A stretch of 36,887 nucleotides of DNA from Bacillota bacterium (GTDB lineage Bacteria; Bacillota_I; Bacilli_A; Acholeplasmatales; Acholeplasmataceae), in the NCBI GenBank assembly GCA_018818645.1, contig JAHIRQ010000162.1:1-36887 (forward strand), given 5' to 3'. Shown here piece by piece: positions 3,400-32,072 of this stretch. The notes below the pieces were generated by a model. The model saw nothing but the letters and a program-made list of their open reading frames with translations. It made no database searches and was not told the origin of the DNA. How positions within the stretch are numbered: position 1 is the first letter of the stretch; each line of letters starts with the position of its first letter. The translations under genes were made by a program, and so were the position numbers.

Positions 3400-4449
3400 T
3401 CAAATAACCATCCTAATCGCTGTTGCAACTACATTAAATATCTCTGTATCTAGTTTTCTAAGTTGATTAATCGATCTATACTCTCGCTCATTGAATAGAG
3501 GTTGTTCTGTTATATTAACATCATATGAACCTTTTAATAGTTTTGCTACTAACATCAAAATAGGTGCTGCATATCTATACGCCACTTCCCCATTAATCTC
3601 AAAACCAAATATATGATTTTGAATCTTTCTGATGCCCTTAATTAAATATGAATAGTCATCTTTATTTATATTTCCTCGAGTTAAAATCGATAGTGTCGTT
3701 TTGAATGTATCCATTAAACAATCATCAGGAGTAACTACTATTCCTCTATAATTTATTTCATTTTGAACCACACGATCATAAGTTTTTCTTACAGACTCTA
3801 TATTGCTTGCCTCCTGGATTAATTTAGAAACATCTAAAAATTGTTTGATAACCTCTAACGTTTTTTCTATTTTAATGCCCTTGCTATTGATGTACTCATA
3901 TTCAATACCTGTTGTATGAGGAGCAAATGCAGTAAGTTTGTCACCAAGTATAGATTCTATTGAAGGTAACTGCACGCTATAATTATCTCCATTTGTAAGT
4001 AGAAATTCGTTTTGTATTTCCCTAGATATGATGTTCTCATAACTATTTTTCTCAAACAAGATATCAAGCAATATCGGAATCTCTATTTCTGATGTTGGTG
4101 ATTTATAGTAGTACTTAAAATGCTTTTTAATAATCTCATTTTTACCCATTCTTACATGCTCTTCCACATGTAAAAAAGGATAAATTTCAGCGGCTTGTTT
4201 TAAATATTGTTCAACATCACATAAGGGATCAACAATTATATCGATATCTGTTGAAAGGCGAAAGGGGTTCTCTAGTAACAGCATCAAAGCAGTACCACCT
4301 TTAAAAACAAAGGGCATTTTCACTTTCACAAGTGATTCTAATAGCCCTAATGCAAAAATTGAACGTTCTATTAACTGTTTGTCTAGCATTGGATATTTAG
4401 ATTTTATGACACTAATGTGTTCCATTGTGAAGCTTTCTTTTAAGATCAC
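3400..4449 (-). CDS. abiEii: AbiEii/AbiGii-family nucleotidyltransferase toxin
   Basis: 349 aa. The N-terminal nucleotidyltransferase core is clear: FVFKGGTALMLLL (about 48-60) followed by RLSTDIDIIVD (64-74), the GGTxL and DxD motifs that hold NTP and metal in the AbiEii/DUF1814 family. These proteins are the toxin half of type IV toxin-antitoxin and abortive phage-infection systems; studied members transfer nucleotides onto RNA such as tRNA acceptor ends, but the target of this one is unknown. The start is a GTG at 4449: GGAGG lies 6 bases upstream and the GTGA overlaps the stop of the antitoxin gene, indicating translational coupling. An internal ATG at 4425 is a weaker alternative. Confidence 0.88.
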   Translation of the reverse strand: MILKESFTMEHISVIKSKYPMLDKQLIERSIFALGLLESLVKVKMPFVFKGGTALMLLLENPFRLSTDIDIIVDPLCDVEQYLKQAAEIYPFLHVEEHVRMGKNEIIKKHFKYYYKSPTSEIEIPILLDILFEKNSYENIISREIQNEFLLTNGDNYSVQLPSIESILGDKLTAFAPHTTGIEYEYINSKGIKIEKTLEVIKQFLDVSKLIQEASNIESVRKTYDRVVQNEINYRGIVVTPDDCLMDTFKTTLSILTRGNINKDDYSYLIKGIRKIQNHIFGFEINGEVAYRYAAPILMLVAKLLKGSYDVNITEQPLFNEREYRSINQLRKLDTEIFNVVATAIRMVI

Positions 4450-5165
4450 GTCAATCCTCCATGTTCAATACTTGACAGTATTTTCTTCATTAAGTCAGTG
4501 TTATTTCGTCTTTTCGCATAAGCATATATTGATTTTAAGTTAACTGTATATGCTTTAAATATGTCTTCAATAACTTTTTCTTTTTCATCATCATTGACAA
4601 ACTCGTTAATCAAGTCTTTCGTGTATAAATCTACGATGAGTTTTTCTATTTTAATGTCTTTAGTTTTAAGATTAATGGGAGCTTGAGTTATGAGTTGTGT
4701 CACTATGATGAGTTCCCCCTGATACAGATACAGTTCATCTTTATCGGGATTGAGCATTACTCTTGTCCGAAAATGATTATAAATAGATCTAAAAACATCG
4801 TTCATAAAATACTTTTCAACTTCAATAAATATAATTTTTCTGGCTATTTGGTGATTTACCCATTCGTTTAAAAGAGTTGACTCATAAACAACGATTTTAA
4901 TATTAGGAAATTTTTCTTCTAAAAAACTAACAATTTTTAGTCTCTCATCACTTGAATTCTTTTGACTAAAGATGTTTGATTTCCCAATCACATATTTTTT
5001 TTGTGATATCTTACTAATCATTCCTTTTTTGACTAAATCATATATAACCCATCTTATGGAAGTGTCTTTATATTTTGGATGAGTTTCTCTAATAAGTTGA
5101 TACAAGCTGTCTCTATCTAAAATTTGATTATTTTCAAACTGTAATAATTTATCTTCTATGGTCAT
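4446..5165 (-). CDS. AbiEi-type antitoxin, winged-helix regulator
   Basis: 239 aa from the ATG at 5165, chosen over a GTG at 5177 because AGGTGG lies 8 bases upstream and the promoter TATAAT is only 22 bases away. Residues about 1-65 look like a winged helix (DSLYQLIRE...TSIRWVIYDLVKKGMISKISQKKYVIG), as in AbiEi and DUF6577-type antitoxins. The rest is a mixed alpha/beta domain (KIVVYESTLLNEW, IIFIEVEK), also typical of that group. By analogy with AbiE it should neutralise AbiEii and repress its own promoter. It overlaps the toxin start by 4 bases. I am confident in the pairing, less so in the exact antitoxin subfamily. Confidence 0.75.
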   Translation of the reverse strand: MTIEDKLLQFENNQILDRDSLYQLIRETHPKYKDTSIRWVIYDLVKKGMISKISQKKYVIGKSNIFSQKNSSDERLKIVSFLEEKFPNIKIVVYESTLLNEWVNHQIARKIIFIEVEKYFMNDVFRSIYNHFRTRVMLNPDKDELYLYQGELIIVTQLITQAPINLKTKDIKIEKLIVDLYTKDLINEFVNDDEKEKVIEDIFKAYTVNLKSIYAYAKRRNNTDLMKKILSSIEHGGLT

Positions 5166-5187
5166 CTTGATCACCACCTATAATCAC

Positions 5188-5958: not shown

Positions 5959-7386
5959 TTAGTTTTGTTCTTCTTGCAACCTGTTATACACTATTTTATA
6001 CTCTTCGTAAAGTTTTTCAGCTTGCTTTTCAAATTGCTTTAATTCATTTAAATCCATTTTGTCTATATCTCTCTTAAAATGTCCTTGTATATTGTTAGCG
6101 GATTTTCTAAATTTCTTTGTTGCTTCATCCATAACCATTGACTTCTCATTTTCTCTAGAACCGGATAGAACAACTCTCCCCACTATATCTCTTACTCTTT
6201 TCTTTATTGCTTCACAATCACTAAAATATTCTCTCGTTTGGTTCAAATGTTCATCTGTAAGAATAGTCTTGTCCGATTTGTAAATATCTAATATATCATT
6301 TAGTGCAAACCCCATATTGGGATTAACTTTGTATAGCATTATAAGTTGATTGATATTTTCTTTAAACTTATAAAAGGATTTCATTGCATCCTCAGACCAA
6401 TTTTTTTCATAACCTTTGCTAATTAGTATGAGTCCAACCTTCGCAATTTCTTTGGATTCTTTTCGTTTCAAAATATAATTTACTATTTCTTGTTGCTTAT
6501 CTCTACTAATATTCTTCAAGATATCTAAGATTGTTTTAGTTTTAAATTCGTTAATTCTTCCTGACTGTAATAATACTTCAGCAATATTTTCACACATTTT
6601 TTGATTAGCAGAATCCTGGTACAAATATGTTTTTTCTTTTACCCAATACAATCCCCAACTATACGCAAAACTTGATCTTTTCGCATTATCATTATAAATC
6701 GCTATATGGTCTCCATTATCATAATAGAAATCTTTCGTACTAGCTATGTTGTTAAATGTAGATCTGCTTAGTTGAATCCACCCATTTCCTTGTAAAGATT
6801 GGCTGAGATTACCTTGGAAACTAGTGAAATCAATGTCATCTTTGATTATGCTACTTACAAAATCTTCATTAGAAATTCTATAAAAATCTTTATTGAATCC
6901 AATTTCAATTATTTCATTACTCAGATTAACTTCATAATAATCAGGCTTTGACACTGGTTCTTTTATATCAAAGTTGTGACTAATATACGTTCCTCCTTTT
7001 TCAACTAGTTGTTGAGCAAAGAATTTAGTTTCAGCAATATTTCCTATAAATACATTTCCTCCAAAAATCGAAATATTGACCATAGGTATATATGCATAAG
7101 TGAACTCTTCGATTTTTTGAATAGGATATAAGGAATCTTTTAGAATCGACTCAATTTCATTTAGTGATAATTCAATCATTTCAGCATATACTTTTTTAAA
7201 GTGATCATTAAGGCTTCCATTACCCGTCATCTCGTCAATCAATTCAAATGCTTTAGATTGAGTCTTTGTATTAGAAATTAATGAAGCAATAAAATACTTA
7301 TCGTATGACACTTTTTCGAATGTGTTATAACGTACTGTTAATTTATTAATTGCCTTAGGCAAATTTAGACGTATTGATACTCTCAT
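5959..7386 (-). CDS. Unknown 475-aa protein, last gene of the viperin operon
   Basis: I do not recognise a family. The N-terminal half (about 1-230) looks mixed alpha/beta (MRVSIRLNLPKAINKLTVRY; YIPMVNISIFGGNVFIGNIAETKFFAQQL; DYYEVNLSNEIIEIGF), with many aromatics around 195-250 (GNGWIQLSRSTF, YSWGLYWVKEKTYLY). The C-terminal half is helical and highly charged, and ends in a probable coiled coil (about 440-475, DLNELKQFEKQAEKLYEEY). There is no signal peptide, membrane segment or clear nucleotide-binding motif. GGGGAGG lies 9 bases before the ATG, and the gene overlaps the helicase gene by 32 bases, so the two are translationally coupled. An adaptor or effector partner of the helicase is possible but is inference. 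Confidence 0.7.
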   Translation of the reverse strand: MRVSIRLNLPKAINKLTVRYNTFEKVSYDKYFIASLISNTKTQSKAFELIDEMTGNGSLNDHFKKVYAEMIELSLNEIESILKDSLYPIQKIEEFTYAYIPMVNISIFGGNVFIGNIAETKFFAQQLVEKGGTYISHNFDIKEPVSKPDYYEVNLSNEIIEIGFNKDFYRISNEDFVSSIIKDDIDFTSFQGNLSQSLQGNGWIQLSRSTFNNIASTKDFYYDNGDHIAIYNDNAKRSSFAYSWGLYWVKEKTYLYQDSANQKMCENIAEVLLQSGRINEFKTKTILDILKNISRDKQQEIVNYILKRKESKEIAKVGLILISKGYEKNWSEDAMKSFYKFKENINQLIMLYKVNPNMGFALNDILDIYKSDKTILTDEHLNQTREYFSDCEAIKKRVRDIVGRVVLSGSRENEKSMVMDEATKKFRKSANNIQGHFKRDIDKMDLNELKQFEKQAEKLYEEYKIVYNRLQEEQN

Positions 7387-9931
7387 TTTTTATTACCTCC
7401 CCTTTTTGATCTATTATAATAAATTCACCATTCTTTCGAATACCGTCAATTATTCCTCTGAAATATTGTCTTGTACCACCTTCACGTGTTTCCATTTCAA
7501 GCTTTTCGAGATTTCTTGAACCAAATACAATCAGTTTATCTCTTGCTCTAGACATAGAAACATTAATTCTTCTAAAATCTCTTAAAAAACTTAGTTTATC
7601 TAACCTTGTGACAACTGTATTTACTAATACAATATCTGTTTCTCTTCCTTGAAATGCATCAACTGTATCAAGTTCAAAACTTTTTAGCATTTTTTTAGCT
7701 TTATTGATTAAATCTTTATAATTTTTGGTGAAGTAGCTAATTTGTGCAGCATATGGGAATATAGCAGACGCTGTTACTGTTTGGGGTTCTATTAGAGTAT
7801 TCAATATATCCTCAAGTACTAAAGCTGTTGCTTGAGCTTCTTGAACATTAAATCTCGAATGTGATTTGGTGTCATCTTGCTCTGTTCCGCCTAAGACCTC
7901 TACAAAATACACATGCTTGTCATTAGATAGGATTGCTTTTTTATTGAATTGTACTATTTTAGGGTTAACAATTTCTCTCATGTTTTTTAGAGTCCCATCA
8001 TAGAAAATATTATAGGCATCTAATACAGGTTTAAGTGATCTATAGTTTTCATCAAGCAATATGAGTCTTCCGGATTTTTCAGCTTTCTCAATTGTTTTTG
8101 AAAAGACTGACTGTTCATAAATAGTTTCTAGTTTCTCAAACATATCTTCGTCGTATGATGGTAAATGCTTTACATCTTCTTTAGAAAACTCAAGCAATGG
8201 GGATAACTGATAATCATCACCCACTAGGATTATTTTCTCTACATATGGAAGATATCTCAAAACTTCAGTTATTGGTGATTTCGATACCTCATCAATGATA
8301 AGCCATTTATAGTCTTTCAATAATTCAAGTCCTTTTTTGCCTGAAATTACGCTTGTTGTTGTTGTTGCTCCAATAACTTGAAAGTTCTCTTTCATATTCT
8401 TTGAATACTGAATTTCACCGAGACCATTAAAATTAGATAAGTCTTCAATAATCTTTTGGGCTAGTCTTTTACTTGTTGATTCCATTAAGTGGCTATTCAG
8501 TTTAGATCCCCACGTCTTAAATAAAGTCTTATCAATTTCTTGATTGCTATATTTGTTTCTACGATTTGTAATTCTATTAGGAATAACCAAATCATAGTTT
8601 TCCATGAGTTTATCTAAAACATTATCAATTGCAACATGGGTTTGAGAAGAAATAACAACTTTTTCTTTTAGTTCTTTAGTAATATATTGAGTTATTGCAT
8701 CTATAACGTGAGTTTTTCCTGTTCCAGGAGGCCCTTTAATTAGTGTCACTGGAGACCCATCAACTGATTTGATAAAAGCTAATTTTTGAGATGTATTGAG
8801 TTTTTTTAAGTACTTAGACCTTGCATCGTTCAAAGAAACAACAGACTCGATATAACTTAATGAACTCTGATGTTTTGTTAGATTTTTAGTATTGCTTGGC
8901 ATTTCTTCATCACCTATTAAATACTCAATCATTTTCATAGATGCACCAGTTGTTCCTTGATTGATGAGTTTTAATGAGTTCTCGATTGATTCGATCTTGA
9001 TCTTTTGTCCCATATCGTATAAATTTAGAAACTGTTCATCAATCTCATTATTTTCAATCGCACTTATAATTAACATATCTTTGTCTTTAGTGATATTTAT
9101 TAGTTCTATTTCGTGGATTTTTTTAATGTTTTGCTCATTGATTATTCGAAAATTACTGACAAATAAATTATCTGACATTTTTTGGATTTTTCTTTGAACA
9201 CCTTCTAAATTATATATATAAATATCTACTATACTCAATGTTTTATCTTTTAAATTATTATCGAATCTATCATAAATATAACCTGGAACTTTATACCCTT
9301 TAATTATTTGTTCTCCATCGTAAATATTTTCTAAATTGGAGTAACTGGAGAGTAGATCACCCGTCTCATTATATAGTTCTTTAACATCAACTGGTAGATA
9401 GTAATATGGTTTATTTGTTTTTGCGATTTCATAGGTTGCACTATTATTAATTTCATCAGATATTTTTTTATAAAACATGAAAACTTCCATAAATTCATCA
9501 AATTGACCAATATTGAACACAAAATCACTATTGGAAGAAATTCCTTCTAAGAGACTAAACATCAAACTATTATCGATTGGATTATTGTTATCCACTTTAA
9601 AATTAAATTTAACCCCACCTAATAATGCGAAATTACCATTTGGTATTTCTCTAAAATCTATGATATAAAATTCGCCTCCAAAAGGTCTATTGAAGGAGCA
9701 TCCAAGATGCCCCTTTAATATTAAATAACCCTCTTTAAGTGCTATTGCAATTTCTACTTTTCTCAAAGATTTAATAAATCTATTATCTTTTTTGTCTCTT
9801 TCAATCTCTAAACTTTTAGTTGAAATTTTTGCATCAATCCAGTTAGATTTTGATACTAGGCTTTCATACCATTCTCTTAATCCGTTGGATTCCTTTGTTT
9901 GATTGTAGGATAATTTAACTTGTATATTCAT
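7355..9931 (-). CDS. SF1 (UPF1/DNA2-like) helicase coupled to the viperin gene
   Basis: 858 aa. Residues about 1-370 are an N-terminal domain I cannot assign. The helicase core is complete: Q-type motif LNTSQKLAFIKS (378-389), Walker A GPPGTGKTH (400-408), motif Ia VVISSQTHVAIDNVL (425-439), Walker B LIIDEVSKSP (544-553), motif III LVGDDYQLSPLL (569-580), motif IV-like LLDENYRS, motif V DTVDAFQGRETDIVLVN, and motif VI RRINVSMSRARDKLIVFGS near the C terminus. This order is that of the AAA_11/AAA_12 (UPF1-like) SF1B group, which move 5'-3' on RNA or DNA. AAGGAG precedes the ATG, and the start overlaps the viperin stop (ATGA). Substrate unknown. Confidence 0.9.
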   Translation of the reverse strand: MNIQVKLSYNQTKESNGLREWYESLVSKSNWIDAKISTKSLEIERDKKDNRFIKSLRKVEIAIALKEGYLILKGHLGCSFNRPFGGEFYIIDFREIPNGNFALLGGVKFNFKVDNNNPIDNSLMFSLLEGISSNSDFVFNIGQFDEFMEVFMFYKKISDEINNSATYEIAKTNKPYYYLPVDVKELYNETGDLLSSYSNLENIYDGEQIIKGYKVPGYIYDRFDNNLKDKTLSIVDIYIYNLEGVQRKIQKMSDNLFVSNFRIINEQNIKKIHEIELINITKDKDMLIISAIENNEIDEQFLNLYDMGQKIKIESIENSLKLINQGTTGASMKMIEYLIGDEEMPSNTKNLTKHQSSLSYIESVVSLNDARSKYLKKLNTSQKLAFIKSVDGSPVTLIKGPPGTGKTHVIDAITQYITKELKEKVVISSQTHVAIDNVLDKLMENYDLVIPNRITNRRNKYSNQEIDKTLFKTWGSKLNSHLMESTSKRLAQKIIEDLSNFNGLGEIQYSKNMKENFQVIGATTTTSVISGKKGLELLKDYKWLIIDEVSKSPITEVLRYLPYVEKIILVGDDYQLSPLLEFSKEDVKHLPSYDEDMFEKLETIYEQSVFSKTIEKAEKSGRLILLDENYRSLKPVLDAYNIFYDGTLKNMREIVNPKIVQFNKKAILSNDKHVYFVEVLGGTEQDDTKSHSRFNVQEAQATALVLEDILNTLIEPQTVTASAIFPYAAQISYFTKNYKDLINKAKKMLKSFELDTVDAFQGRETDIVLVNTVVTRLDKLSFLRDFRRINVSMSRARDKLIVFGSRNLEKLEMETREGGTRQYFRGIIDGIRKNGEFIIIDQKGEVIKNESINTSKFA

Positions 9932-10782
9932 CGATTTACTCCTTTTTCAGTTTGGTATCTTTTCATGAAAGTTTTATAATTAATCTCCGCTATAGCGATT
10001 AGTTCTTCTAAGTTTGTTTCAAAGACTGAACCAATTTTCTTATGTATATTCCCTTTGTTTGATATTAAATTTCCTTTTGGATCAATAATCACATATGAGC
10101 ACTCCATCATATCTTCTGATTCAATTATAATGCCATCATATGATTTTAGTTGACTCGAATATTCATTAAATTCATTTGAACTAATCCCATAATTTATTGC
10201 CGATTCGTTGCAATCATTATTAAACCTAACTTGGAGCAACTTAATTCTATCAAATCTAATTTGCTTATATAAACTTGATATATCTTCATGCAAATTGAAT
10301 TTTGAAACAACGGTGTTAATCTTGATTTTAATATTGTTCTCTTTTGCGATATTCAATATTTCAAGCAAATCACTAATTTCGATAGTTTTTCCATTGCTAT
10401 GTCTACCTATTAGAAGATTAGTTTCTCTATTTAAAGAATCGATGCTGATTCCTATAGTGTCAACCTTTCCGATCCAAGCTCGGATTTTTTCTTTTGTTAA
10501 TAAAGAGATATTAGTAATGATTGATACTTTTATATCTAATGAATTTATGTAATCAATAAGTTCATCAAGATAGTTTACAACTAACGGTTCACCACCAGCA
10601 AGATTAATACGGCCATTAAGAATAGCATTTTTCTTAAAATACTCATTGACTATATCAACTGTTTTGATCCATTCCTCCACGGTAAATTCTTGTTCGTTGT
10701 TGAATTTTGCAAAACAGTAGGCACACATATAATTACACTTTTCCGTAAGATGGAAATTAATAACATCCACTGTATTATTCAT
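9928..10782 (-). CDS. Prokaryotic viperin (pVip), radical SAM ddh-nucleotide synthase
   Basis: 284 aa. The radical SAM cluster motif is C16-x3-C20-x2-C23 within INFHLTEKCNYMCAYCFAKF, the CNYxCxxCFA form typical of viperins. Further landmarks follow in order: LAGGEP (61-66), VSIITNISLL (86-95), GISIDSLNRETNLLIGR (111-127; human viperin has a CDSF...NVLIGR counterpart), IKINTVVSKFNLHEDI (153-168; compare FKINSVINRFNVEEDM in human viperin), and ESEDMMECSYVIIDPKG (221-237), matching the ESNQKMKDSYLILDE region. Viperins use SAM to dehydrate an NTP to its 3'-deoxy-3',4'-didehydro form, a chain terminator of viral RNA synthesis; which NTP is used here is unknown. AGGTGG precedes the ATG; 8 bases after the 151-aa gene and 4 bases overlapping the helicase. 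Confidence 0.9.
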   Translation of the reverse strand: MNNTVDVINFHLTEKCNYMCAYCFAKFNNEQEFTVEEWIKTVDIVNEYFKKNAILNGRINLAGGEPLVVNYLDELIDYINSLDIKVSIITNISLLTKEKIRAWIGKVDTIGISIDSLNRETNLLIGRHSNGKTIEISDLLEILNIAKENNIKIKINTVVSKFNLHEDISSLYKQIRFDRIKLLQVRFNNDCNESAINYGISSNEFNEYSSQLKSYDGIIIESEDMMECSYVIIDPKGNLISNKGNIHKKIGSVFETNLEELIAIAEINYKTFMKRYQTEKGVNR

Positions 10783-10790
10783 ATATCCAC

Positions 10791-11246
10791 CTATACCCTA
10801 CTATATCCGTTATGGTAACCGGTTATCTCATTAAATTGGTATTTAGATAGTGATTCAATAATCACTTTTTCTTTCTTTCGCTTAAAATCAACAAGTGCTG
10901 TATCACGAAATTTAGAATAGGATTTAGTATTTGTCTTGATGCCATTGATTCTACTGTAGTTAGGCTCATCTACTAGTCTTTCATTAAACAAGTATAGTCT
11001 TGATCTGCTATGTTTTTCAAAGTAAACATCATTTCTGTATGCTTCTCTAGCTATTTCAAAACTCTCATAGTCAACTTCATAAGGCCCTTCTAGACACCAG
11101 TCTTTATGATCTCTTTTAACACCACCAATGTATTTGGCTCTATTACTTGCTTCTTTTGCAGACTCAGCAACCAATGCGATTATTAATGGAAGATATTTGT
11201 CTCTACCAACGTGTCCGAACTTGCATTTCACTAAATAATAACTCAT
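10791..11246 (-). CDS. Unknown 151-aa protein, first gene of the viperin operon
   Basis: The N-terminal half, SYYLVKCKFGHVGRDKYLPLIIALVAESAKEASNRAKYIGGVKRDHKDW, has a small alpha/beta look with GHVGRxKYLP and VKRDHKDW motifs. I recall similar short uncharacterised proteins in Firmicutes with this GHVGR/KxDHKD pattern, but no function. The C-terminal half is basic and rich in Tyr and Arg (YFEKHSRSRLYLF; KFRDTALVDFKRKKEK), which would suit nucleic-acid binding (inference). There is no membrane segment or signal peptide. AAGGAG lies 7 bases before the ATG; the next gene, viperin, starts 8 bases after its stop. It may be a regulator, sensor or accessory factor. Confidence 0.7.
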   Translation of the reverse strand: MSYYLVKCKFGHVGRDKYLPLIIALVAESAKEASNRAKYIGGVKRDHKDWCLEGPYEVDYESFEIAREAYRNDVYFEKHSRSRLYLFNERLVDEPNYSRINGIKTNTKSYSKFRDTALVDFKRKKEKVIIESLSKYQFNEITGYHNGYSRV

Positions 11247-11259: not shown

Positions 11260-11475
11260 ATTTTTTAGTATGCAGCAAATTGTTTGTTTGTGTTTTTATT
11301 TTTAGGCCCTCCTATGCAAAAATACAAACACTTATAGCTCTGCAATTCACCGCTGTTCTTTCACATATCTAAATGTGAGTCTATAGGTATACCTTCCTAC
11401 TCAGATTATTTTTCTAGAATAAATAACCTTTTTGGGTGTTCGCTCTTTTATAACGATGAGCGCCTTCGTCCGCAA
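11260..11475 (-). ncRNA. Hairpin-rich ~230-nt leader of the viperin operon (candidate structured RNA)
   Basis: From the predicted start site (about 11473) to the first ATG (11246) there is no convincing ORF but several successive stems on the minus strand: CGCTC/GAGCG (12-base loop), AGATTATTT...AATAAATAAC around TTCTAGAA, the palindrome GGTATACC, TCACAT/ATGTGA, and a stem pairing GTGTTT-ATTTTT with AAAAAT-AAACAC whose loop carries GGAGGGCC. I match no known riboswitch class. The last stem could trap a GGAGG sequence, but the actual ribosome binding site lies outside it. Confidence 0.4.
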
Positions 11476-11479
11476 CTTC

Positions 11480-11535
11480 ATTTTATCACAAAAAATAAAA
11501 AGGTCAAACAAAAAATGAAAAATTTGTTTAACCTT
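11480..11535 (-). promoter_or_regulatory. Promoter of the viperin operon with operator-like inverted repeat
   Basis: Minus-strand TTGACC (11502-11507), a 16-base spacer and TAAAAT (11480-11485) with the extended -10 TG. The -35 sits inside one arm of a long inverted repeat: AAGGTCAAACAAA (11500-11512) with TTTGTTTAACCTT (11523-11535), 12 of 13 paired, placed as an operator would be. The sequence right after the -10 (TTGCGGACGAAGG) is repeated upstream. Confidence 0.65.
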
Positions 11536-11547
11536 GAAAAATCAGGC

Positions 11548-11619
11548 AGGTGTACACCTATAGTTTGCGGACGAAGGAGTACACCCATGTTGTTTACGTC
11601 CGCAAATGTATTTTATCAC
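11548..11619 (-). promoter_or_regulatory. Second promoter-like copy and hairpin upstream of the viperin promoter
   Basis: The block GTGATAAAAT, four bases, TTGCGGACG occurs twice on the minus strand: here (11597-11619) and at the main promoter (about 11467-11489). Here it has only a weak -35 (TGACTT). Between them TTTGCGGACG and CGTCCGCAAA form a 10-bp stem, and a perfect 12-bp palindrome AGGTGTACACCT lies at 11548-11559. A transcript from this upstream site would fold into the hairpin. A regulatory switch or dual promoter is possible. Confidence 0.45.
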
Positions 11620-11870: not shown

Positions 11871-14800
11871 TCAATCTATGATTTCTAAATAGATTTCAAA
11901 GCCGCTTGGTATTGCTACATACCCTTTACCTTCTATTTTTTTTGTAAATTCACTACTATCAAAAATATTACCTATGTTTTGGATTTTAGGCTTTTTTTCA
12001 GTAGCTCCATTGCAAATAAAGATTTGATAAGTATCATGATGTCTTTGTGCAAATTTAATTTCATTCTTAGAAAAATTCAATTGCAACTTATTCCCGAATA
12101 TCTTTGTCCCTTTGATTTCTATAAAATAATTAATTCCATTTTTTTTATATTTTATATCATATCCTAGACCTGCTCTACCATTCGGATTAATAGCAGGATC
12201 TGCATTCTCTGAGTCCCATCTAACTTCAGTAACTGACTCCGCCTTCTCGGTTAAGTATTTATACACAATCTTTTCAGCCAATAATCCAGTATATGACTTG
12301 CTGTTCCCGGTTTTTTGAATGTCCATTTTTGTTCCAGTAGAATCTGTGTTGTTTTCTCTTATTTCAACCTTGCCAGTATCTACTGAACTAAAACTAATAT
12401 TATTAATATCTGGTAATACCATTTTTTCTTCTTCGTTTTTTATGCTGATGAAAGACTTGTATCGTTTCAATAATTCATCTAATTCGCCAAGATACATCAG
12501 ACTTTTTTGTGAAGGATAATTGAGCATGCTGTTCAAGGAACTGTCACTGATAGTTAACTCTTTTAACTTGAACTTGAACAACTCCAAATTTTTATTGTAC
12601 TCGTTGGCTATATTGACTTGTACCTCTTGAGGATCAAATTGTAGGAAATCAATCGACTTATAATAAGATGTATGGTCGAAATCAATATCTAAGTTATTCT
12701 CAATCTCTGCCAAATCAAATTCAAATTGATGATATCTAATCAAATCTTCACTAAACTTTAATTTATTGCTCATTAAAACCTCTGATTTGTACTTGTGGTA
12801 TAGCGATGATATCCACAAATCCTCATTGGTTGAAACCATTTGCTTAAGTATCATTTCAAAATAGTTCTTCTTGTCAAATTTGAGTTCAGAATGTTCATTG
12901 AATTGATTTATTGTCTTGTTTGATTTTTGTAATATCTCGAATAATATCTTTTGATTTGTGAGATTATTGAAGAAGTGATAATCCATTGATTCAAGTTGAC
13001 TTTTTTGTGTTTCGGTCAATGTAACTAATAACTTATCTTCAAATATTTGATACAAATACTCGACCTTTAACTGAGCGATTCTTTCTTGTTTCTTTTTATC
13101 ATCCAATAAAGCTAACGCTTCTCGCACTTCATCTACTGATCTTGAACTAGTCAATTCGACTTTATCTTTAGTAGTTTGCGATAAATTGCTTGTATCCTCT
13201 ATTGGTTTGAAGTTTAGATATCTTTCAAGTTCATTATTTGCTGCATTGTACTCGTTTCTAAATTCATTTTTGCTAATATCAGACGTTTTGTATACGTTAT
13301 CTCCTATGTGAGTCCAAGCATTGTTAATTAACTGTTCAACAAACTCTGATGGGAAAGAACCTCTTGCAACTTCATTTACGTGCTTAAAATAAATTTCATA
13401 AGTTGATGTGAAGTATTTGTTGGGTATATTCACAAGATAATTCCAAAATTGTTTTGATGATTCTTTTACCAGGTTTGATAAAGCTATTGAAAGAAAATCT
13501 AAGTTATAGTCAACAAACGAATGTGTTTTTTGAGTTGATATTTCATATTTCGGAAAATTATTACTTACTTGATTAGTTACTTTATGTGGAATAAAGTAAT
13601 GGTAAGATTTTTCAGTTGGAATTATTTTTAAAAAAGAATTTATTCCTAGTTTAACAATCAGCTCGTGAAACCAAGTATTAATTTCATATATTTGTTGAGT
13701 TTTAGAAAGTATTAAATGGGCATTTGAATTTTTTAAAATATCTCGCAAAAATTCAGTGTTAAGATAAATGTCTTTGGGTTTAAGAAACGATATGACATTT
13801 GTTCCCGCCTTCGTACAAGGGAAAAACTCTATGTCTTTTAATTCTTTGATGATTAATTCTTTTTGCTCGTTTTGACAACCATTAATGATGTTAAGTATTT
13901 CTTCAATTGATTCCGTTAATTCACTTTCATCTGTTAGGGATTTTAACACCGGTATCCATTCTTCCTTGATTAAATCAAGAGCGTTTGCTTCTTTTATCCC
14001 CAGCTTTTTGAAAAAACTCATTGATGTTTCATCACTAAGAAAAGTTTTCTTGATTGCTTTATCATTACTTTTGACAAATTCAGATGGCAAGAATACATCG
14101 GGGATATTCTTTATCAAAGGGTTTCTCATTTTATTGTTAATGTTTCTAATTATTGGTTTTGGATTATTTCTGATGTTATTAACATTCAAAAGACAAATAT
14201 CGTAAAACTTCATAAGCCATTCATCAGTTTTATCGTCAAAAAAACTGGTGGTTATTCTAGAATTAAATGTATTAAATTCAACGTCAGTTATGTCTAACCC
14301 ATCTGTTAAAAATTTACGCAATTCGTCGTTTCTACTCGATTTGATTCCTGTACCATCAATCCATTTATATCTACCATCAAACATAGTTTTTAGATCGTTT
14401 TCAGATAATATTTCCATGAACAATTTGTTATCTCTACAAAGAAGAGCAATTGAAGCCTTTATATATATTCCATCATTACTTAAAAGTAACTCGTTATTTT
14501 CAAACGTTTCTATGGTTTTATTATAGAATTCTGAATAGATATAGTCTTGATTTGGTCTTGGTGAATTAGCTAGAAAATATATTAAATCTATAGTCAGCAA
14601 ATTGTGCTTTTTTAAAGTCAATATTGAATTTTCATACAAATTCAGGGATTCCTTCAGAATTATTTCATTAAATTCATTGTTACTAAAAGAGACCTGCTCC
14701 CTTGTATATGAGGTGTTAAAGGGGGCATCAATTTTAAATCTTAGATGTGTATCAACTTCTGTAGGAAATAAAACCGATAATTTATTCGTGCTAATTTGCT

Positions 14801-15611
14801 TATCCTCAATATCAAATTTAGGATTTAAATATGCAATCGAAATATTTCTTTTTAATTCTTTTTTCTTGTATTCATCGTAATATGAGATTTCTCTCTGGAA
14901 TAACAAAAAATGTTGTTCTTTTTGCTTGTTATTAACTACAAGATCAATAAAAGATGTTTTATCAATTTCGTCAATCACATCCTTGACAATTGATATTTCG
15001 TTGAACTTCTTTCCATCAATAAATATTTCTATATTTTTTATATAGTCAGAAAACATAATAGAATCTTCATTAAGTAGTTTTAATCCATTTTCAACAATTT
15101 TATAAGTTTTAGTTATATTAATGTCTGCATCAAAATCTAAAACGAACTTAGTCCCAATATTAAGACTATTATCTGAATCAATTCTTATCGGCACATTGTA
15201 ATCTTCTATACGAAAAGATGGATAGTTCACATCGTATGAATAAATATATGGTGTTTCTGTAATTTTGTATACAGATTTAAATCCTATTCCAAATTTCCCT
15301 CTTGTGTCTTCTTGATTAACATTTCCAGCTTGACAAATTCGTTTAATGTCATTTAGTGAGAATGCCGTTCCGTTATGTGTGAAAATTAATTTATCACTTT
15401 CTAAATAAATCGTAACCTTACTTGCTAAGACATTTTCAGCATTTTGTAATAACTCAAAAATGAAATGTGATGGTTCTTTATACATGTCGCTCAACACACG
15501 TTTAACACTATCCCATCCAGCATTTTTTAGTTGCAGGTTAAGGGATCTTTCAATTTCGGCAATTTCCTCTATCGATTTGGCATTCTCTATTGTTTTATTC
15601 TCAATTTCCAT
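11871..15611 (-). CDS. Sacsin-type GHKL ATPase with C-terminal DUF3883 domain
   Basis: 1246 aa. The N terminus carries a GHKL (Hsp90/MutL-like) ATP site: N-box ELLQNAEN (53-60), LIFTHNGTAF (75-84) in place of the usual DxGxG loop, and GKFGIGFKSVYKIT (105-118). This is the sacsin/MORC-like form in which HNG replaces DNG. A long, largely helical middle follows. The C terminus (about 1115-1215) has GLLAEKIVYKYL, GYDIKYKKNGINYFIEIKGT and NEIKFAQRHHDTYQIFICNG, the DUF3883 pattern; D...ExK resembles a PD-(D/E)xK nuclease core. Such ATPase-plus-DUF3883 proteins recur in defence islands, so an ATP-gated nucleic-acid sensor or nuclease is likely (inference). GGAG lies 8 bases before the ATG. Apparently a single-gene unit. 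Confidence 0.85.
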   Translation of the reverse strand: MEIENKTIENAKSIEEIAEIERSLNLQLKNAGWDSVKRVLSDMYKEPSHFIFELLQNAENVLASKVTIYLESDKLIFTHNGTAFSLNDIKRICQAGNVNQEDTRGKFGIGFKSVYKITETPYIYSYDVNYPSFRIEDYNVPIRIDSDNSLNIGTKFVLDFDADINITKTYKIVENGLKLLNEDSIMFSDYIKNIEIFIDGKKFNEISIVKDVIDEIDKTSFIDLVVNNKQKEQHFLLFQREISYYDEYKKKELKRNISIAYLNPKFDIEDKQISTNKLSVLFPTEVDTHLRFKIDAPFNTSYTREQVSFSNNEFNEIILKESLNLYENSILTLKKHNLLTIDLIYFLANSPRPNQDYIYSEFYNKTIETFENNELLLSNDGIYIKASIALLCRDNKLFMEILSENDLKTMFDGRYKWIDGTGIKSSRNDELRKFLTDGLDITDVEFNTFNSRITTSFFDDKTDEWLMKFYDICLLNVNNIRNNPKPIIRNINNKMRNPLIKNIPDVFLPSEFVKSNDKAIKKTFLSDETSMSFFKKLGIKEANALDLIKEEWIPVLKSLTDESELTESIEEILNIINGCQNEQKELIIKELKDIEFFPCTKAGTNVISFLKPKDIYLNTEFLRDILKNSNAHLILSKTQQIYEINTWFHELIVKLGINSFLKIIPTEKSYHYFIPHKVTNQVSNNFPKYEISTQKTHSFVDYNLDFLSIALSNLVKESSKQFWNYLVNIPNKYFTSTYEIYFKHVNEVARGSFPSEFVEQLINNAWTHIGDNVYKTSDISKNEFRNEYNAANNELERYLNFKPIEDTSNLSQTTKDKVELTSSRSVDEVREALALLDDKKKQERIAQLKVEYLYQIFEDKLLVTLTETQKSQLESMDYHFFNNLTNQKILFEILQKSNKTINQFNEHSELKFDKKNYFEMILKQMVSTNEDLWISSLYHKYKSEVLMSNKLKFSEDLIRYHQFEFDLAEIENNLDIDFDHTSYYKSIDFLQFDPQEVQVNIANEYNKNLELFKFKLKELTISDSSLNSMLNYPSQKSLMYLGELDELLKRYKSFISIKNEEEKMVLPDINNISFSSVDTGKVEIRENNTDSTGTKMDIQKTGNSKSYTGLLAEKIVYKYLTEKAESVTEVRWDSENADPAINPNGRAGLGYDIKYKKNGINYFIEIKGTKIFGNKLQLNFSKNEIKFAQRHHDTYQIFICNGATEKKPKIQNIGNIFDSSEFTKKIEGKGYVAIPSGFEIYLEIID

Positions 15612-17634: not shown

Positions 17635-19498
17635 TTAATTGGACTGATTTTTCTTGATTCTTGTTTTAACAAAGTTCTCTGTATTTTTATCCATGAAGTA
17701 TACAAAGCAACCTTTCATGCCCCTTGATAACAAGACTCGATATATATTTTTCACTATACTTTGATATTTTTCATCAAGCATTCCTTTGAGTTTTACTTGA
17801 CTAATCATATTTCCTTTATGGTTGCTTTTCATAGATAACCAAGATTGTGTATTTAGATTATAAATGATATCATTGCCTATAATCAAACTCAAATCCTTGA
17901 GCACTGTAAACACAGCCAACTTGACCAAACCCTTTTTCATTATATGCCCATAGATTAGATGCGGGATTTCCATCTCTTGCTTCTCTTAAGTTCCATGGTC
18001 TTTGATAGTTACCAATAGAGACATCTAGGGCTCCAACTTCTTTTGACCATGGGAAACAAAATCCAGAAACCATTCTGCCTGTATTGCCTTGAACTATTTT
18101 CTTTTTGAGTTCATCTTCAATACTTTCAGGATTATCAAATATCATAAACTCAAATGAATCAGATAGTTCTAGCATGACGTTGGCAGTTTCTCTAATTGCT
18201 AATGTATTTTCAACCCATTTAATGAATCCATCATTACCAGCACATCTAAATTGAACTCTAAGTTCTTCTTCCCAAACATCGCACTCAAGGCTTTCAGCAT
18301 GTTCTTTAATGTATCCTGAGTTCCCAACTTCATCCGGTAAAACAACTTGATCATCATCGATGAAGAAAACAGCTATATTACATGCTTCAATAATTTCTTC
18401 AATTTGAAGTTTTCCACTATAGATTTTGGACATATATGATCCATAAGGGGCTTTTTCTCTGATACGATGCGCTTCATCAATAATTAAACAGTCTCGTTTT
18501 TGATTTTGGGTATTTACATAGCTGTTTGTATATTTGAACAAACTACTCGCTCCGCTACCAATAGCTTTTTTATAGCTTTGTGTGAATGCAGCACTACCAG
18601 TAACATACTCAGCCCATTTACCTAATTTACTGAGTTCTGCTAGAAGGTTGATTGCAATTAAACTTTTTCCAGTACCTGGTCCACCTTTGATAATGAGGAC
18701 TTGCTTCTTATTATCATGCAAGCCATTCTTAATGATTGCCATGACATGGTCAAAAACTATTTTTTGTTCTTCTAATAAAACATATGAATTATTGTTTTTA
18801 ATGATATTACTTGCTTCATCCAGTAACTTTTTAGATGGTCTAATATTAGATTTATTAATTTTCTCTAAAACTTGTTCACCACTTCCATTACCAAGTTTGG
18901 CTTTCAGATAATCAGCTAGTGAATTTCTATCATTCTTAGAATAAATTGGTGACCTTGTTAGATAATTTGCAAATTTCGAATCAAGAATGGGATCATCAAT
19001 ATCAAACACATAATTATGCAAGTATACACAACTATCCAATTTGATATTTCCTAATTTTTGATAAAAAACTTCCAAAAATCCTTGGAGATAACTCCTATAG
19101 GCATCTACTTGCACACTTGGGTGTAATATATCTCTTAATCCACCACCAACCGCTGTTTTAACCTCGTTTTCCATTAGAGAAGGCTTTGATGATTGCCATT
19201 GCTTTAACTCGATTAAAACGGCTTGTTCTTCATCATTATTATTGATACCTGTCAAAAGAACATCGATTCTTAGACTAGAAAGTGGAATGAAATATTCAAG
19301 CTTTATTCCTTGACTAGTAAAATCAACAGTCTTAAGCAAGTTGCCAAGCTCTTTTAGGGAATTCTGCCAGCTCATAACCTCATTATGTGAGGGGCGATAA
19401 CCATAATAATGAGCGAATTCATTTGATAACATCATTGATATACTATTTTGAGTTGATTGTCGAATAAAATCATTACACAAGCCTTGATAAAGTTCCAT
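17635..19498 (-). pseudogene. DUF2075 family nuclease-helicase, broken by a frameshift near its 3' end
   Basis: The first frame (17870-19498, 542 aa) has an N-terminal D79...E97-x-K99 nuclease-like core (LRIDVLLTG, AVLIELKQW), Walker A KGGPGTGKSLIA (271-282) and Walker B CLIIDEAHR, and ends at GCVYSAQGFEFDY then two wrong residues and TGA. The expected continuation (IIGNDIIYNLNTQSW ... NIYRVLLSRGMKGCFVYFMDKN) is present in another frame and ends at 17635. The joined protein would be about 620 aa, normal for the family. The helicase is a putative SF1 member found in many defence islands. GGGAGG precedes the ATG. Without the last motifs (YRVLLSRGMKG) ATPase function is probably lost, unless frameshifting or a sequencing error is involved. 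Confidence 0.85.
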
Positions 19499-20437: not shown

Positions 20438-22459
20438 TTACTCAATTCCTAAAGACTTAATAACAGCATCTTCTGGACTGCTATAAAAAGACGTTTGGAA
20501 TTTAGCAAATAAATCTGATGGTACTGCTGGTATATCTGCGGCTGATGAAATTGGTAAAAGAATTTTTTTTGCACCAGCATCATGACACACTTGTAAAGAT
20601 GATGCTAGATTCTCGATTTTTTGTATTGTTCCACCAATTGTAAAGGAACCTAACACGCAAAATTGTGACAACACTGGTTTATCTAAAGATGAACTACAAT
20701 ATGCCACTAGAGCTGCTATAGATATACTTGAGACCAAACCAACCCCCTGTACATCTTGAATGTGAAGTACATAGTCTTTGGTGTCAACCATAATGCTTGG
20801 GCTAATGGACTTTGAATTTGCTTTAAAGAAGCGTTCTGCAGTGACAATTGATTCTTTAGGTTCTTTCCCGGTATTAAGTCCACTAACGGAAAATTTCCCA
20901 TTCCCAGATGAAATCTGTGTCTCAAGTTTAAAGATGCCCAACATCCCATTTGATCCTTGACCTATTGTATGAATATGTCCCGCTTTCATTTGTCCTTCAG
21001 GGATAATTTTTCCACCACCTTGTTCTAAAACCGGTACATATATTTCATCCATCGTTGATAATCTAATATAAGAGAATTGAGTATCATAGAATTCCATACC
21101 ACCAATCTTCTTTAATTGTTCTTTCACTCTTCTTCTACCTTCTAGTGCATACTTAAGGATTTCTTCGATTTCTTCTTCTGTATAAACACCATCAGGGTAA
21201 ATTATTTTGACTAACCCCGATACGATTTTCCTTACGGCAATCGTGTCTCTTTGATTAAGACATTTCCCAAGTTTAAAGTATTTATCAAATGCATCTGTTT
21301 GTGGCGTCTTCCTTAATGTTCTTAACACTTCAGCAAAATAGTCTGTAATAAATCCATAATTTTCGGTGAAATGCTCTGGTTTCATCTTTGGCATTTCCCA
21401 ACCTGGAATGTAATTATGCATACGATCAAAGAATGCGCTATCAATCATTGCCTCTGGGAATGGCTCAAATAAATGCGAAGTTTTTAATAGTGACTCAACT
21501 GATTGGTTGATGTTGCCAACAAATACCATAGAAGCATTTGCAGGAATCATTTCCTTACCTCTTGCAAATGATCCCGATGCCATATAGTCTTTCATGATTT
21601 GAATTCCACCTTTATCTTTAAATGAAATTCCAGCAACTTCATCGAATGCAACTGTATCCCACATACTTACAAGTCCTGGTGTTCTTCTAGCTAAATTAAA
21701 AAATAGATTGGCTACTGTTGTTTGCCCACCACTAATTAATATAGAGTTAGGCGATATTTCTTTATAGATGTGCGACTTACCTGTTCCTCTAGGCCCTAGT
21801 TCACACAAGTTTACATTATTTTCAACAAGTGGAATAAGACGTGCTAATAGATGCCACTTAACACGAGGTTTAAATTGAGTAGGTTCCATACCAGTTGAAC
21901 GTAGGACTAAATCAATCCATTCATCTTTTGTAAATTGCTTTCTCCGATCTTTAATCTCATTGATATCGATATTTGGCATTTGAATGGGTGTGAGTTCTTC
22001 AAGTCTAAATGGAGAACCTCCTTCATCTTCATCATAAAAGTAATTAAGCGTAACAATACACCAAATACCATCACTCAGTAACTTTTCGATATCCCTAATA
22101 TATCTATCTGGTACCTTGACTGTAACATTTAGATTATGTAGTCTCCCTAAATAAAGGTTTCTTTTTTCATCGAGTCGTGCAGAAACCACATCAATGACTG
22201 TATAGGTTTGTAATTCCCTTACTTTAGATTTAACAAGTTCTGCTTCATCTGCTCGAACATAGTTTTCTTGGAGGATTTTTTTGACTTGAACAATGCCCTT
22301 TTCAATTTCAGCATCATCATCAGATGTACAATATGTGCCTAAAAGATATTCCAAAACATACGTTGGAACATTTGCGCTATTTTTAATCTTCTTGGTTGCC
22401 CCTTTTTTTACAACACGACCACTAAATTGTTCATAAACTTTTACATCAAGACTGTCCAT
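20438..22459 (-). CDS. brxL: BREX AAA+ ATPase with Lon-like C-terminal domain
   Basis: 673 aa, the usual BrxL length. N-terminal domain about 1-200; AAA+ core with Walker A LGPRGTGKSHIY (221-232), Walker B VAFDEVAGI (about 269-277) and sensor-1-like VFVGNINQS; C-terminal Lon-like domain (about 570-673). In that domain the segment QGVGLVSSISIAALVAY aligns with the Lon catalytic-Ser loop and keeps Ser. The segment TIGGTIQKIENLASSL aligns with PIGGLKEK but has no Lys at the expected place, so peptidase activity is doubtful. BrxL is needed for BREX phage exclusion but not for host methylation in studied type 1 systems. AGGAGG precedes the ATG. Last core gene of the operon. Confidence 0.93.
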   Translation of the reverse strand: MDSLDVKVYEQFSGRVVKKGATKKIKNSANVPTYVLEYLLGTYCTSDDDAEIEKGIVQVKKILQENYVRADEAELVKSKVRELQTYTVIDVVSARLDEKRNLYLGRLHNLNVTVKVPDRYIRDIEKLLSDGIWCIVTLNYFYDEDEGGSPFRLEELTPIQMPNIDINEIKDRRKQFTKDEWIDLVLRSTGMEPTQFKPRVKWHLLARLIPLVENNVNLCELGPRGTGKSHIYKEISPNSILISGGQTTVANLFFNLARRTPGLVSMWDTVAFDEVAGISFKDKGGIQIMKDYMASGSFARGKEMIPANASMVFVGNINQSVESLLKTSHLFEPFPEAMIDSAFFDRMHNYIPGWEMPKMKPEHFTENYGFITDYFAEVLRTLRKTPQTDAFDKYFKLGKCLNQRDTIAVRKIVSGLVKIIYPDGVYTEEEIEEILKYALEGRRRVKEQLKKIGGMEFYDTQFSYIRLSTMDEIYVPVLEQGGGKIIPEGQMKAGHIHTIGQGSNGMLGIFKLETQISSGNGKFSVSGLNTGKEPKESIVTAERFFKANSKSISPSIMVDTKDYVLHIQDVQGVGLVSSISIAALVAYCSSSLDKPVLSQFCVLGSFTIGGTIQKIENLASSLQVCHDAGAKKILLPISSAADIPAVPSDLFAKFQTSFYSSPEDAVIKSLGIE

Positions 22460-22470
22460 GCGTTTACCTC

Positions 22471-24993: not shown

Positions 24994-25001
24994 AAAGCAC
25001 C

Positions 25002-28000
25002 TCACTTAATTGGAACTAAAAGATCTTTCTTGACCTTTCCATTACTTGTTGATATTTCTATTCCTTGGAACTTTGCATAATTTACTTTAACACCGTCGTC
25101 TAAATTGATTGAGATGTATTTGTTTGCCATATAGTCCAATACTTGACCATATTCAATTGCTTCAGTTAATTGCTCGATTATAATAAACCTTTTCCGTTCA
25201 AGTTGAATTTTATCTTTGTCTAGAGCGGACCCAATAATTTGATCTAACTCATTTATCTTTGTTCGAAGTATTGTGGTTGCTGGTTGAAAATAGTTGGCAT
25301 TTATCTTTGCAAGAGTATCATCTTTATACTTGTGCATATAAACTAAACACTTAAATCCGTTTTGTTTACCACTTGAAAACATCCAATAAATTGGTCGTTT
25401 CTGATAATTCTTTAAATGATCAAAATAAAACTCATCATTTAAATATCTATTTAGAGTTTCTTCGTTTGTTTCATTACTTTTTTTGCCAATAGATTCAGCA
25501 ACGAATTCGATATTATTTCTATAACAATCAACGCCAAAAAATCTCTTTATTAGCCTAATTATTTCTTGAGTTAACCCTTTTTCATTGCTCACATCATCAA
25601 ATAAAGTATATATCCCATTACTGTTGATATCATAATAAACAGCTCCTTTTGATCTCTTATGGCTAAACCCGTTATTTTCATTACTACTCTCTGGAAATCT
25701 ATTCATTAATATACCTACAAGATATGAAATTAAAGACTTTACTTCTAGGTTTTTTTGTGGCAATGTAATAGTTATATCATTATTACTAATATCGAAATCT
25801 AATATATCGTTGAATCCGTAAGTATTTATGAACATTTTGTTTAACTCAATTTCGTTTCTTTTTAATGTTTCAAATCTTTCATTACACAGATTGTAGTATT
25901 TTTCATAATTATCCCTTAATCTTCCAGGAATGTATAAACTATGACATATGAAACCCATAGAGGTCTCATAAGAATTCCAGTCTTGTCTTGATAACTCGAT
26001 ATTTTCTTTAACAAAGTAATTAACTCTTTCCAATAAATTATTATCAACTATCGTGGGAATTAATGCCAAACTTCCCCAATTATAGTGAAGACCAGGACAC
26101 AAGAATTGTGCGTACAATTGAAAAACTTTACTGTTTGCAATACCTAAGTAATAGTAGATATATTTTTCATTGTACACTTCCAACATAGGACCAGATGAAT
26201 CGCTTATAGATCCCTCTGGCAATAAACGAAATGAAATATTACCAGTTGAAACATCGGTATATGTTATACCACTTTTAAAATAATAGTTTTCATTACTCTT
26301 TTGATACTTTGGACTATCTTTTAGTTCTATGCCATTATTTTCATAATTTATTACTAAATTTAAATTCCCATACCATCTTCTAAATAAACCCCCTTTATTA
26401 AATATAAACCATTTTGTTGTTAATACTTTGTTAAAATCAACTTCATGCCAATATCTGACAAATCTATCATTATCACCAGTAGAAATTCTAACCCTTTGTT
26501 GTACATGATCAGAAAATTTGGATTTAGAGAATAAATCAATCGCAATGTCGCTAATCCAATAACCAAATACACTATCCGGAATTTTAGATAATAATGTTGC
26601 CGTTTTGATAAAAATATTATTAGAACTTTGATTATTGGCTTCTAAAAAAATCAATTCTTTATTAACTTGTTCAGTTAGTCGTACGAATTTGATTCTAGCT
26701 AAAGGCATCTTGCAATTTCTAATCACTGTAGTAACTGTTTGTACAACCTCTCCAGATATTTCCTCGAAAGCTCTACTTCCTAGATGAATAAAACTTTCCA
26801 TTTTATAATTGCTGAGAATACTAGTTCTCAAGTTTCTATATGTGGGTTGGTATATCCATGCTTGCATGTTAATTATGGCTGTGAATCCATTTTTACTTAC
26901 GAATCCGGTTTCCATAAACATAGCGAACATATCTGATTTGCTCGAAGGATAATAATCAGAGAAATACTTTTTCGGTTTTAGTTCTAATCCTGTTGAACCA
27001 ATATAGGGTGGATTCGTAATCATGACATCATACTTTGATGCAAGAAAAAATGAAGCTCTTAAAATTTCGAGAACTTCTTTAAACTCTCGACTAAAGAAAG
27101 TAGAAGTGAAAATATCGGGTTGGGTATTCTCTTTTTCATTGATAGATAGTTTTTTTCTAATAGACAAGTATTTTGCTGGTTTTACTTTTAATAATGAGCC
27201 AATAACCTTTGCATCATCAAATAAGTCTACGACATATTCAATCGACTTAATCTCATCATCAGATAATTGATTTTCGCCAATCCATTGCTTAGAGTTGTAC
27301 TCTTTAATTATTTCGAGATATTTTTTCCCGTTATAATTTGCATTCAAGATGGCTTTAGAATCGATAATTTCAAAAACCTTTGGTCTTACATATCTGTTTT
27401 CATCAAAAAATTTATTGTCAATCGATCTAGCTCTCATAACTAATGCAAAAGAAGCTATTTGGGTAGCTCTTTGGTCAATATCTAATCCTACAAGATTATT
27501 CTTAAAAACATGTTGTGGAATATCTCTTTTTGTATATCCTTTTTCGACATACATCTTAACCAACAAATCGAAGCAATACACTAATATATGCCCAGAACCA
27601 CTACAAGGTTCGATAATCTTGATATCTTCAGGATTAACATCTTTATATTTAATCGCTTTTAATTTCTCCTCAACTTCTGGCTCTTGTTCTACTTCTTCCA
27701 CGTAATATTTCATATCTGTCTTAATTGGGGAATTAGGATAACTTTCTAACCATATTCTACCTATTGAGTTCTCAGCCATATATTTAACAATCCAATCAGG
27801 TGTAAAAAGTTGTGTTACTGCTGGTAGTGTATCTTTCGTTACTATATTCTTCGCAGCAAATACTTCAGCCTTTTTATTAGCAATGTAAAACTGATATAGC
27901 CATCCAAGGATTTCTACATCTTCTTTAAAATCATTTTTATCAATTTCAATCAATTTATTGATAATTGTTTCTCCAAATAACAATGGTGCAGGTATGAAAT

Positions 28001-28535: not shown

Positions 28536-28546
28536 TATGAGCCCCC

Positions 28547-32068: not shown

Positions 32069-32072
32069 AGTA

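Follow-up and report, generated by a model that had tools for sequence, protein, structure and literature searches.

A Predicted Small RNA and the Leader of a Viperin-Encoding Helicase Operon Covary in Their Mutual Pairing

Introduction

The silencing and triggering of bacterial immune operons are understood mainly through protein regulators. CARF domains are ligand-sensing. WYL proteins are known regulators of defense systems (PMC9122601, PMC9122588, PMC9122589). In type I toxin-antitoxin systems a small terminated RNA with its own promoter is encoded beside its target, antisense to it or divergently, and can pair over a long stretch with the 5' region of the mRNA of a small hydrophobic toxin. 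The type III RNAs ToxI and AvcI, which are characterized by a pseudoknot and by tandem repeats of an RNA motif, and the AbiF RNA RCd22 (PMC12373285) are linked to phage-defense genes and act by binding protein. For the type III system AvcID, loss of the RNA antitoxin on transcription shut-off was described as a trigger (PMC10511110).

Here we describe a predicted sRNA and an operon leader encoded in a stretch of 36,887 nucleotides from an Acholeplasmataceae bacterium, the whole of which is referred to as the window. As in type I systems, the predicted terminated RNA lies beside its target, is complementary to the 5' part of the mRNA over a long distance and is probably co-inherited with it. 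In contrast to type I RNAs, it is located on the same strand directly upstream of its target, its 5' end copies that of the mRNA, the leader keeps a complex conserved structure, and the target is a multi-gene defense operon instead of a small hydrophobic toxin. With the type III RNAs and RCd22 it shares the linkage to a phage-defense gene, and with the type III RNAs the pseudoknot, which is predicted here for the sRNA. However, its conserved partner is another RNA, the operon leader, and the sRNA has no Rfam match. Tandem repeats are absent, since each locus has a single sRNA unit; of the three genomic copies of the motif, two are the 5' arms of different predicted transcripts. In our reading the RNA pair is a probable case of antisense-type RNA control outside the type I and type III toxin-antitoxin families. 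As in other prokaryotic viperin loci the operon encodes a pVip, but the pVip is optional here and the RNA pair goes with a core of a helicase and a 475-aa protein, mostly without viperin. WYL (BrxR/CapW-like) and CARF regulators occupy the same place in related helicase+475-aa operons and hence probably do the same job, but they are proteins.

In the mainly open-access full texts that were searched, neither the RNA pair nor the helicase+475-aa pair was found to be described. A conserved RNA pair where related operons have CARF or WYL genes offers a directly testable RNA route to immune control. The pair forms a family absent from Rfam and marks a so far unnamed candidate defense system; it can be studied in Mycoplasma testudinis ATCC 43263, a named type strain that carries one member.

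Results and Discussion

Two Promoter-Like Units Upstream of the Operon

On the minus strand, positions 11619-11247 contain two promoter-like units in tandem. The block GTGATAAAAT-N4-TTGCGGACG, which the original prediction had reported to occur twice, is indeed present in two exact copies on this strand (11619-11597 and 11489-11467), compared with a chance expectation of 0.01 matches in the window when up to three mismatches are allowed. The sequence TTGCGGACGNA was found only three times in the 2.23-Mb genome, in both block copies and once inverted at 11565-11575. This inverted copy, CCTTCGTCCGCAA (11577-11565), had been overlooked before and is the key to the region: its 13 nt are the perfect complement of the start of the second unit (11475-11463). 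The inverted repeat AAGGTTAAACAAA/TTTGTTTGACCTT (11535-11500), followed by TTTTATTTTTT, does overlap the -35 element of the operon promoter as originally stated; however, with its 13-bp stem and the T tract extending to 11490 it is built like an intrinsic terminator rather than an operator. A perfect palindrome had also been noted; AGGTGTACACCT is present at 11548-11559, but the palindrome itself is not conserved, since several relatives carry AGGCATACACCC or AGGAATACACCC at the same position. Given the tandem units, the inverted complement and the terminator-like hairpin in between, the first unit looks like an sRNA gene of ~110 nt and the second like the promoter and leader of the operon. 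The first unit comprises the following elements.

11610-11619, minus strand: P1, extended -10-like element GTGATAAAAT of the predicted sRNA promoter (first block copy, putative start site downstream)
11490-11606, minus strand: predicted sRNA of ~110 nt, structured, with the same architecture in 10 other loci
11597-11605, minus strand: 5' arm of the sRNA, TTGCGGACG, with the final 9 nt of B' as its intramolecular partner
11582-11586, minus strand: A', GGGTG, with D' within the sRNA or leader element A (CACCC) as alternative partners
11565-11577, minus strand: B', CCTTCGTCCGCAA, complementary over all of its 13 nt to the leader 5' end, covarying with leader element B
11552-11563, minus strand: C', CTATAGGTGTAC, complement of leader element C; together with the following ACCT it contains the palindrome AGGTGTACACCT
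11548-11552, minus strand: D', CACCT, closing the predicted sRNA pseudoknot with A'
11490-11535, minus strand: predicted intrinsic terminator of the sRNA, 13-bp stem (11535-11500) and T tract, overlapping the -35 element of P2

The predicted fold of the sRNA unit is more stable than that of shuffled sequences (z -3.6), none of 200 shuffles being as strong. In the predicted pseudoknot the helix 5' arm:B' crosses A':D', and both helices covary. Over 11 loci these self-helices are paired in 98.1% of the cells, with two-sided changes at 11 of 14 pairs; for 5' arm:B' this holds for all nine pairs.

The second unit contains P2 and the leader.

11480-11507, minus strand: P2, predicted operon promoter, TTGACC - 16 - TAAAAT with TG extension, 10 of 12 consensus matches
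11381-11476, minus strand: conserved leader RNA, 69 bits with covariance model R1, 12 loci
11463-11475, minus strand: B, TTGCGGACGAAGG, leader 5' end and target of B' (13-nt complement, covariation)
11440-11462, minus strand: hairpin H1, which sets B and A side by side (covariation)
11434-11438, minus strand: A, CACCC, target of A' (covariation)
11396-11433, minus strand: AAAAAGG - hairpin H2 - CTGAGTAGG, the most strongly conserved unpaired letters of the leader
11381-11392, minus strand: C, GTATACCTATAG, target of C' (covariation)

A leader of ~230 nt with five stems had been proposed. The leader does fold better than shuffled sequences (z -2.6), but conservation is limited to the first ~96 nt (11476-11381). 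Conserved structure does exist among homologous leaders, so that the lack of it, which the original prediction had named as a refutation, was not observed. All four tested pairs of H1 showed two-sided changes and the hairpin was paired in 100% of the cells. AAAAAGG (11427-11433) and CTGAGTAGG (11396-11404) are near-invariant in nine loci, while H2 is partly covarying. This conservation exceeds what plain antisense control requires and suggests a bound protein or a tertiary fold. Both motifs flank H2 in a manner that resembles a protein- or ligand-binding internal loop. A TTGACA within the terminator hairpin is also found in L045, L046 and L051.

Covariation of the sRNA with the Leader

Three stretches of the predicted sRNA are complementary to the leader: 11577-11565/11475-11463, 11586-11582/11438-11434 and 11563-11552/11392-11381. 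The elements are arranged in the order A' (GGGTG), B' (CCTTCGTNNNGCA type), C' (CTATAGGNNTAC type) in the sRNA and B, H1, A, C in the leader. The complementarity to the mRNA of 13 + 5 + 12 nt, which corresponds to that of type I antitoxins, covaries over 11 loci. Element B differs among loci (TTGCGGACGAAGG, TGCACAACGAAGG, TTGCGAACGAAGG, TTGTACGAAAGGG), yet every sRNA fits its own leader.

Covariation was counted in ungapped blocks from 11 loci, cut by hand with constant spacers to keep the register. The intermolecular structure was paired in 95.5% of the cells compared to 75.6 ± 1.4 in shuffles, and 29 of its 38 pairs had changed on both sides (11 of 13 for B:B' and 10 of 12 for C:C'; L049 is without C:C'). 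A', which also showed two-sided changes, was paired with either D' or leader A in 98% of the cells. The covariation score was 0.595 versus 0.196 ± 0.021 for shuffles, and sliding the register by one to three columns gave at most 0.123. In a test that uses no blocks, the duplex energies of the cognate sRNA-leader pairs summed to -378.7 kcal/mol, whereas permuted partners gave a mean of -310.0 kcal/mol (sd 12.8); none of 200,000 permutations was as good as the cognate assignment. The computed optimal assignment (-381.5 kcal/mol) differed from the cognate one solely by a swap of L051 and L067. When only the first eight loci were considered, the cognate assignment ranked best of all 40,320. The idea of an RNA-based switch is therefore well supported, and in a stronger form than first proposed, with two RNAs that covary in their mutual pairing. 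That this pairing is a selected trait is well supported by the sequence comparison.

Masking of B, A and C hardly altered the predicted accessibility of the ribosome-binding site, and no conserved terminator was found downstream of C. Consequently, no simple readout is visible. Models in which the sRNA occludes ribosome binding or brings about termination were rejected, as no consistent effect was predicted. The leader was also considered as a small coding frame; this was dropped on inspection because the frames differ among loci and the lengths are not multiples of three.

Distribution of the RNA Pair

The leader was detected in 12 loci. In 11 of these, which belong to distant genomes and include the one of Mycoplasma testudinis, the elements follow the order sRNA-terminator-P2-leader. 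The leader motif TCTGAGTAGG is located ahead of the first gene in L045, L046, L047, L049 and L051, and the leader is also present in L053 (Mycoplasma testudinis) and L054 (upstream DNA read by eye). The covariance model R1, built on nine leaders, was run over 392 genomes of the phylum and matched in six of them, in five cases ahead of a helicase+475-aa operon. These true matches are the window genome, G085 (identical with the L051 stretch), L066, L067 and L068. The last three stem from genomes of one mycoplasma-like genus reading UGA as Trp, in which 3 of 20 genomes carry the leader. A match of 27.9 bits in G611 lies inside a coding gene and was dropped as chance.

All 12 leader loci precede a gene pair for a UPF1-like helicase and the 475-aa protein. 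In 11 of them (all but that of genome G086) one sRNA unit is found 116-168 nt upstream with the same internal order; an AT-rich, predicted -10-like element ahead of the sRNA and a terminator-like hairpin at the corresponding place occur in 11/11 loci. G086 (L012/L040) contains the same four genes as the window and a leader with 79% identity over 146 nt. There, leader and terminator are kept without a detectable sRNA, indicating that the sRNA can be lost. Neither a complement of the leader start nor a trans-encoded sRNA was found elsewhere in the G086 genome (82% complete). Element C of this locus has drifted to CCTATTG, as if its pairing were freed from selection.

Two exact leader patterns were not found in viral contigs, and no DNA similarity to plasmids or phages was detected.

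The Operon and Its Helicase+475-aa Core

The operon downstream of the leader consists of four genes.

10791-11246, minus strand: first operon gene, encoding a 151-aa protein of the KCxFGHVGR family with relatives in 27 of 395 genomes within the class
9928-10782, minus strand: prokaryotic viperin (pVip), NF038283 241.4 bits (cut-off 180), PADLOC pVip 232 bits
7355-9931, minus strand: UPF1-like SF1 helicase of 858 aa, Pfam AAA_11/AAA_12
5959-7386, minus strand: 475-aa protein, constant partner of the helicase, adjoining it in all loci whose contig extends far enough

Judged by these profile scores, the operon encodes a genuine pVip, as the designation viperin operon had implied. However, only 2 of the 12 RNA-type operons include viperin, and among the 19 loci obtained with a helicase scan of GTDB genomes, G086 was the only one that also had viperin inside the operon. 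Since helicase and 475-aa protein are constant and viperin is rare, the operon is better described as a helicase+475-aa core with optional additions. In RNA-type operons the first gene codes for the 151-aa KCxFGHVGR protein, for a protein of 109 or 461 aa, or for the ~840-aa helicase.

The best solved relatives of the helicase are UPF1/NAM7 (E 4e-23). The Mokosh MkoA profile matched it in the helicase part only (604-1099 of 1112) instead of over the full length, and no other Mokosh profile was found in the operon. No Pfam, NCBIfam or PADLOC family was found for the 475-aa protein. Its AlphaFold model (pLDDT 91) had no match below E 0.3 in the PDB using Foldseek, and VIA-align gave only middling matches to the C-terminal helices. 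Among these was RnlA (Z 4.4, rmsd 3.7, 79 aligned), a likeness too weak to use. The 151-aa protein, for which the same three collections contained no family either, is part of a wider KCGHVGR family, and the model of the protein resembles ribosomal protein LX/L18a only weakly (E 0.15). A link of the leader to the 151-aa gene was rejected, because the other relatives of this gene lack the leader by sequence or model and the gene is missing in 5 of 12 RNA-type operons. Protein scans of viral contigs revealed no relatives of the 151-aa protein or the helicase, and none of the 475-aa protein were found in plasmids and phages.

CARF and WYL Genes in Place of the RNA Pair

Among 23 operons with the helicase+475-aa core, 12 carry the RNA (11 pairs and one leader only), eight a CARF gene and two a WYL gene; in the remaining one (L055), located at a contig edge, none of these modules was seen. 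No operon combines two module kinds. Fisher's test, with the loci treated as independent, gives 1e-5, but independent module swaps are few: about three (at least three) changes are seen on the helicase tree, for example between the sister operons L050 (WYL) and L051 (RNA). The CARF gene ahead of the helicase was recognized by PADLOC PDLC01820 with about 244-262 bits in seven scanned proteins, and in L043 by 96% identity. Because WYL proteins regulate defense, CARF domains sense ligands and both occur in related operons where the RNA pair is absent, the RNA pair is most likely a regulatory or sensor module.

The CARF proteins are accompanied by a partner of 292-295 aa, which in L048 belongs to no Pfam or PADLOC family. 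CARF-type loci (L041-L044, L048, L052, L057, L058) share a conserved arrangement of four to five genes, usually with a ~110-aa protein first, followed by CARF, the ~295-aa partner, the helicase and the 475-aa protein. Upstream of the first gene of L041, L042, L048, L052 and L057, AAAGTGTTAAGT is followed by TATATAATG about 20-25 nt further on, an arrangement suggestive of a special type of promoter or of an activator site.

Proposed Mechanism and Alternatives

In our view the region is quite probably a two-RNA switch, in which the predicted sRNA from P1 and the leader from P2 exchange helices and control the operon. Two separate transcripts are to be expected from the terminator-like hairpin in all loci and the good P2 in the window. 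P1 would produce a short terminated sRNA folding into a pseudoknot. P2 would produce the operon mRNA, the first ~96 nt of which would comprise B (the 5' end, which recurs unchanged at the start of the sRNA), H1, A and C. The sRNA could either keep its own helices 5' arm:B' and A':D' or trade both for the leader. The exchange product would consist of B:B' (13 bp), A:A' (5 bp, beside B since H1 folds out) and C:C' (up to 12 bp). For B' as well as for A', one conserved partner lies within the sRNA and a second in the leader, as a strand-exchange switch requires. With H1 folded out in between, B and A are both able to contact the A'-B' stretch of the sRNA.

Control of the operon by this pairing is suggested by the position of the region and by its replacement with CARF or WYL genes in related operons. 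In the direction that we prefer, the sRNA would hold the operon low in the healthy cell. If the unstable sRNA were lost, for instance when a phage stops host transcription, the helicase, 475-aa and viperin genes would be released. Release on infection is suggested by the fate of the RNA antitoxin AvcI at the phage-induced transcription stop and by the expected need for silent defense genes. More tentatively, the RNA pair itself might be the infection sensor of the operon, its strand exchange reading the host transcription state or a competing phage RNA and switching on a helicase-based defense; this seems possible but doubtful. If true, RNA would do the job of the CARF or WYL proteins of the sister operons.

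The near-invariant AAAAAGG and CTGAGTAGG, with the bound protein or tertiary fold that they suggest, leave as the main rival an unlikely one: the sRNA:leader complex could be a structural RNA part of the effector, bound by the helicase and/or the 475-aa protein as a ribonucleoprotein, with regulation being secondary. UPF1-type helicases act on RNA, and each RNA pair found is linked to the helicase+475-aa genes. Nevertheless, 11 of the 23 helicase+475-aa operons are without the RNA, 10 of these carrying a CARF or WYL gene, and L040 has lost its sRNA; a structural part should be less replaceable. We also judge it improbable that the pairing occurs in cis only, B' of a P1 read-through transcript choosing between its own 5' arm and leader B as an attenuator of the long transcript. 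In all loci both parts are encoded on a single strand, their 5' ends being separated by 116-168 nt, and the sRNA arm duplicates leader B, but a terminator-like hairpin separates them in every locus and in the window a good -35/-10 of P2 follows the terminator.

A ligand-binding riboswitch that the P1 unit only modulates would explain the invariant internal-loop-like letters around H2. Outside the H2 loop, however, the most conserved letters are those that pair with the sRNA. At the gathering score Rfam, whose families include riboswitches, T-box and abiF RNAs, gave no match in the window and only tRNAs in ten relatives, and relaxed thresholds yielded nothing above chance. Such a riboswitch is thus very improbable. 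An operator function of the repeats, with a repressor binding to the DNA, was also considered in the original prediction, and direct and inverted TTGCGGACG copies and a perfect palindrome do occur within the promoter region. This reading can hardly be maintained, since the repeat sequence varies among loci while the complementarity stays, the palindrome is not conserved and no regulator gene was found in RNA-type operons; by sequence, the repeats are the matching 5' ends of two predicted transcripts and their complement.

Genomic Neighborhood and Further Observations

The window is a defense island. It contains AbiEi/AbiEii, a TmtA-like sacsin/NOV protein, a Schlafen-group-3 helicase, a type 1 BREX cluster (PglX, BrxL, etc.) and a serine recombinase at its edge.

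3400-5177, 11871-15611, 17870-19498, 20438-33314 and 34634-36250: defense-island neighbors of the operon

In L066, L067 and L068 the 151-aa gene seems to start at ATC, ATA or ATT instead of ATG, with a good Shine-Dalgarno sequence ahead. Rare initiation codons like these, of the infC type, could add another level of control. Downstream of the helicase operon in L068 (positions 7865-11074 of the reverse complement) there is a gene that appears Cas9-like, an assignment based solely on its start sequence.
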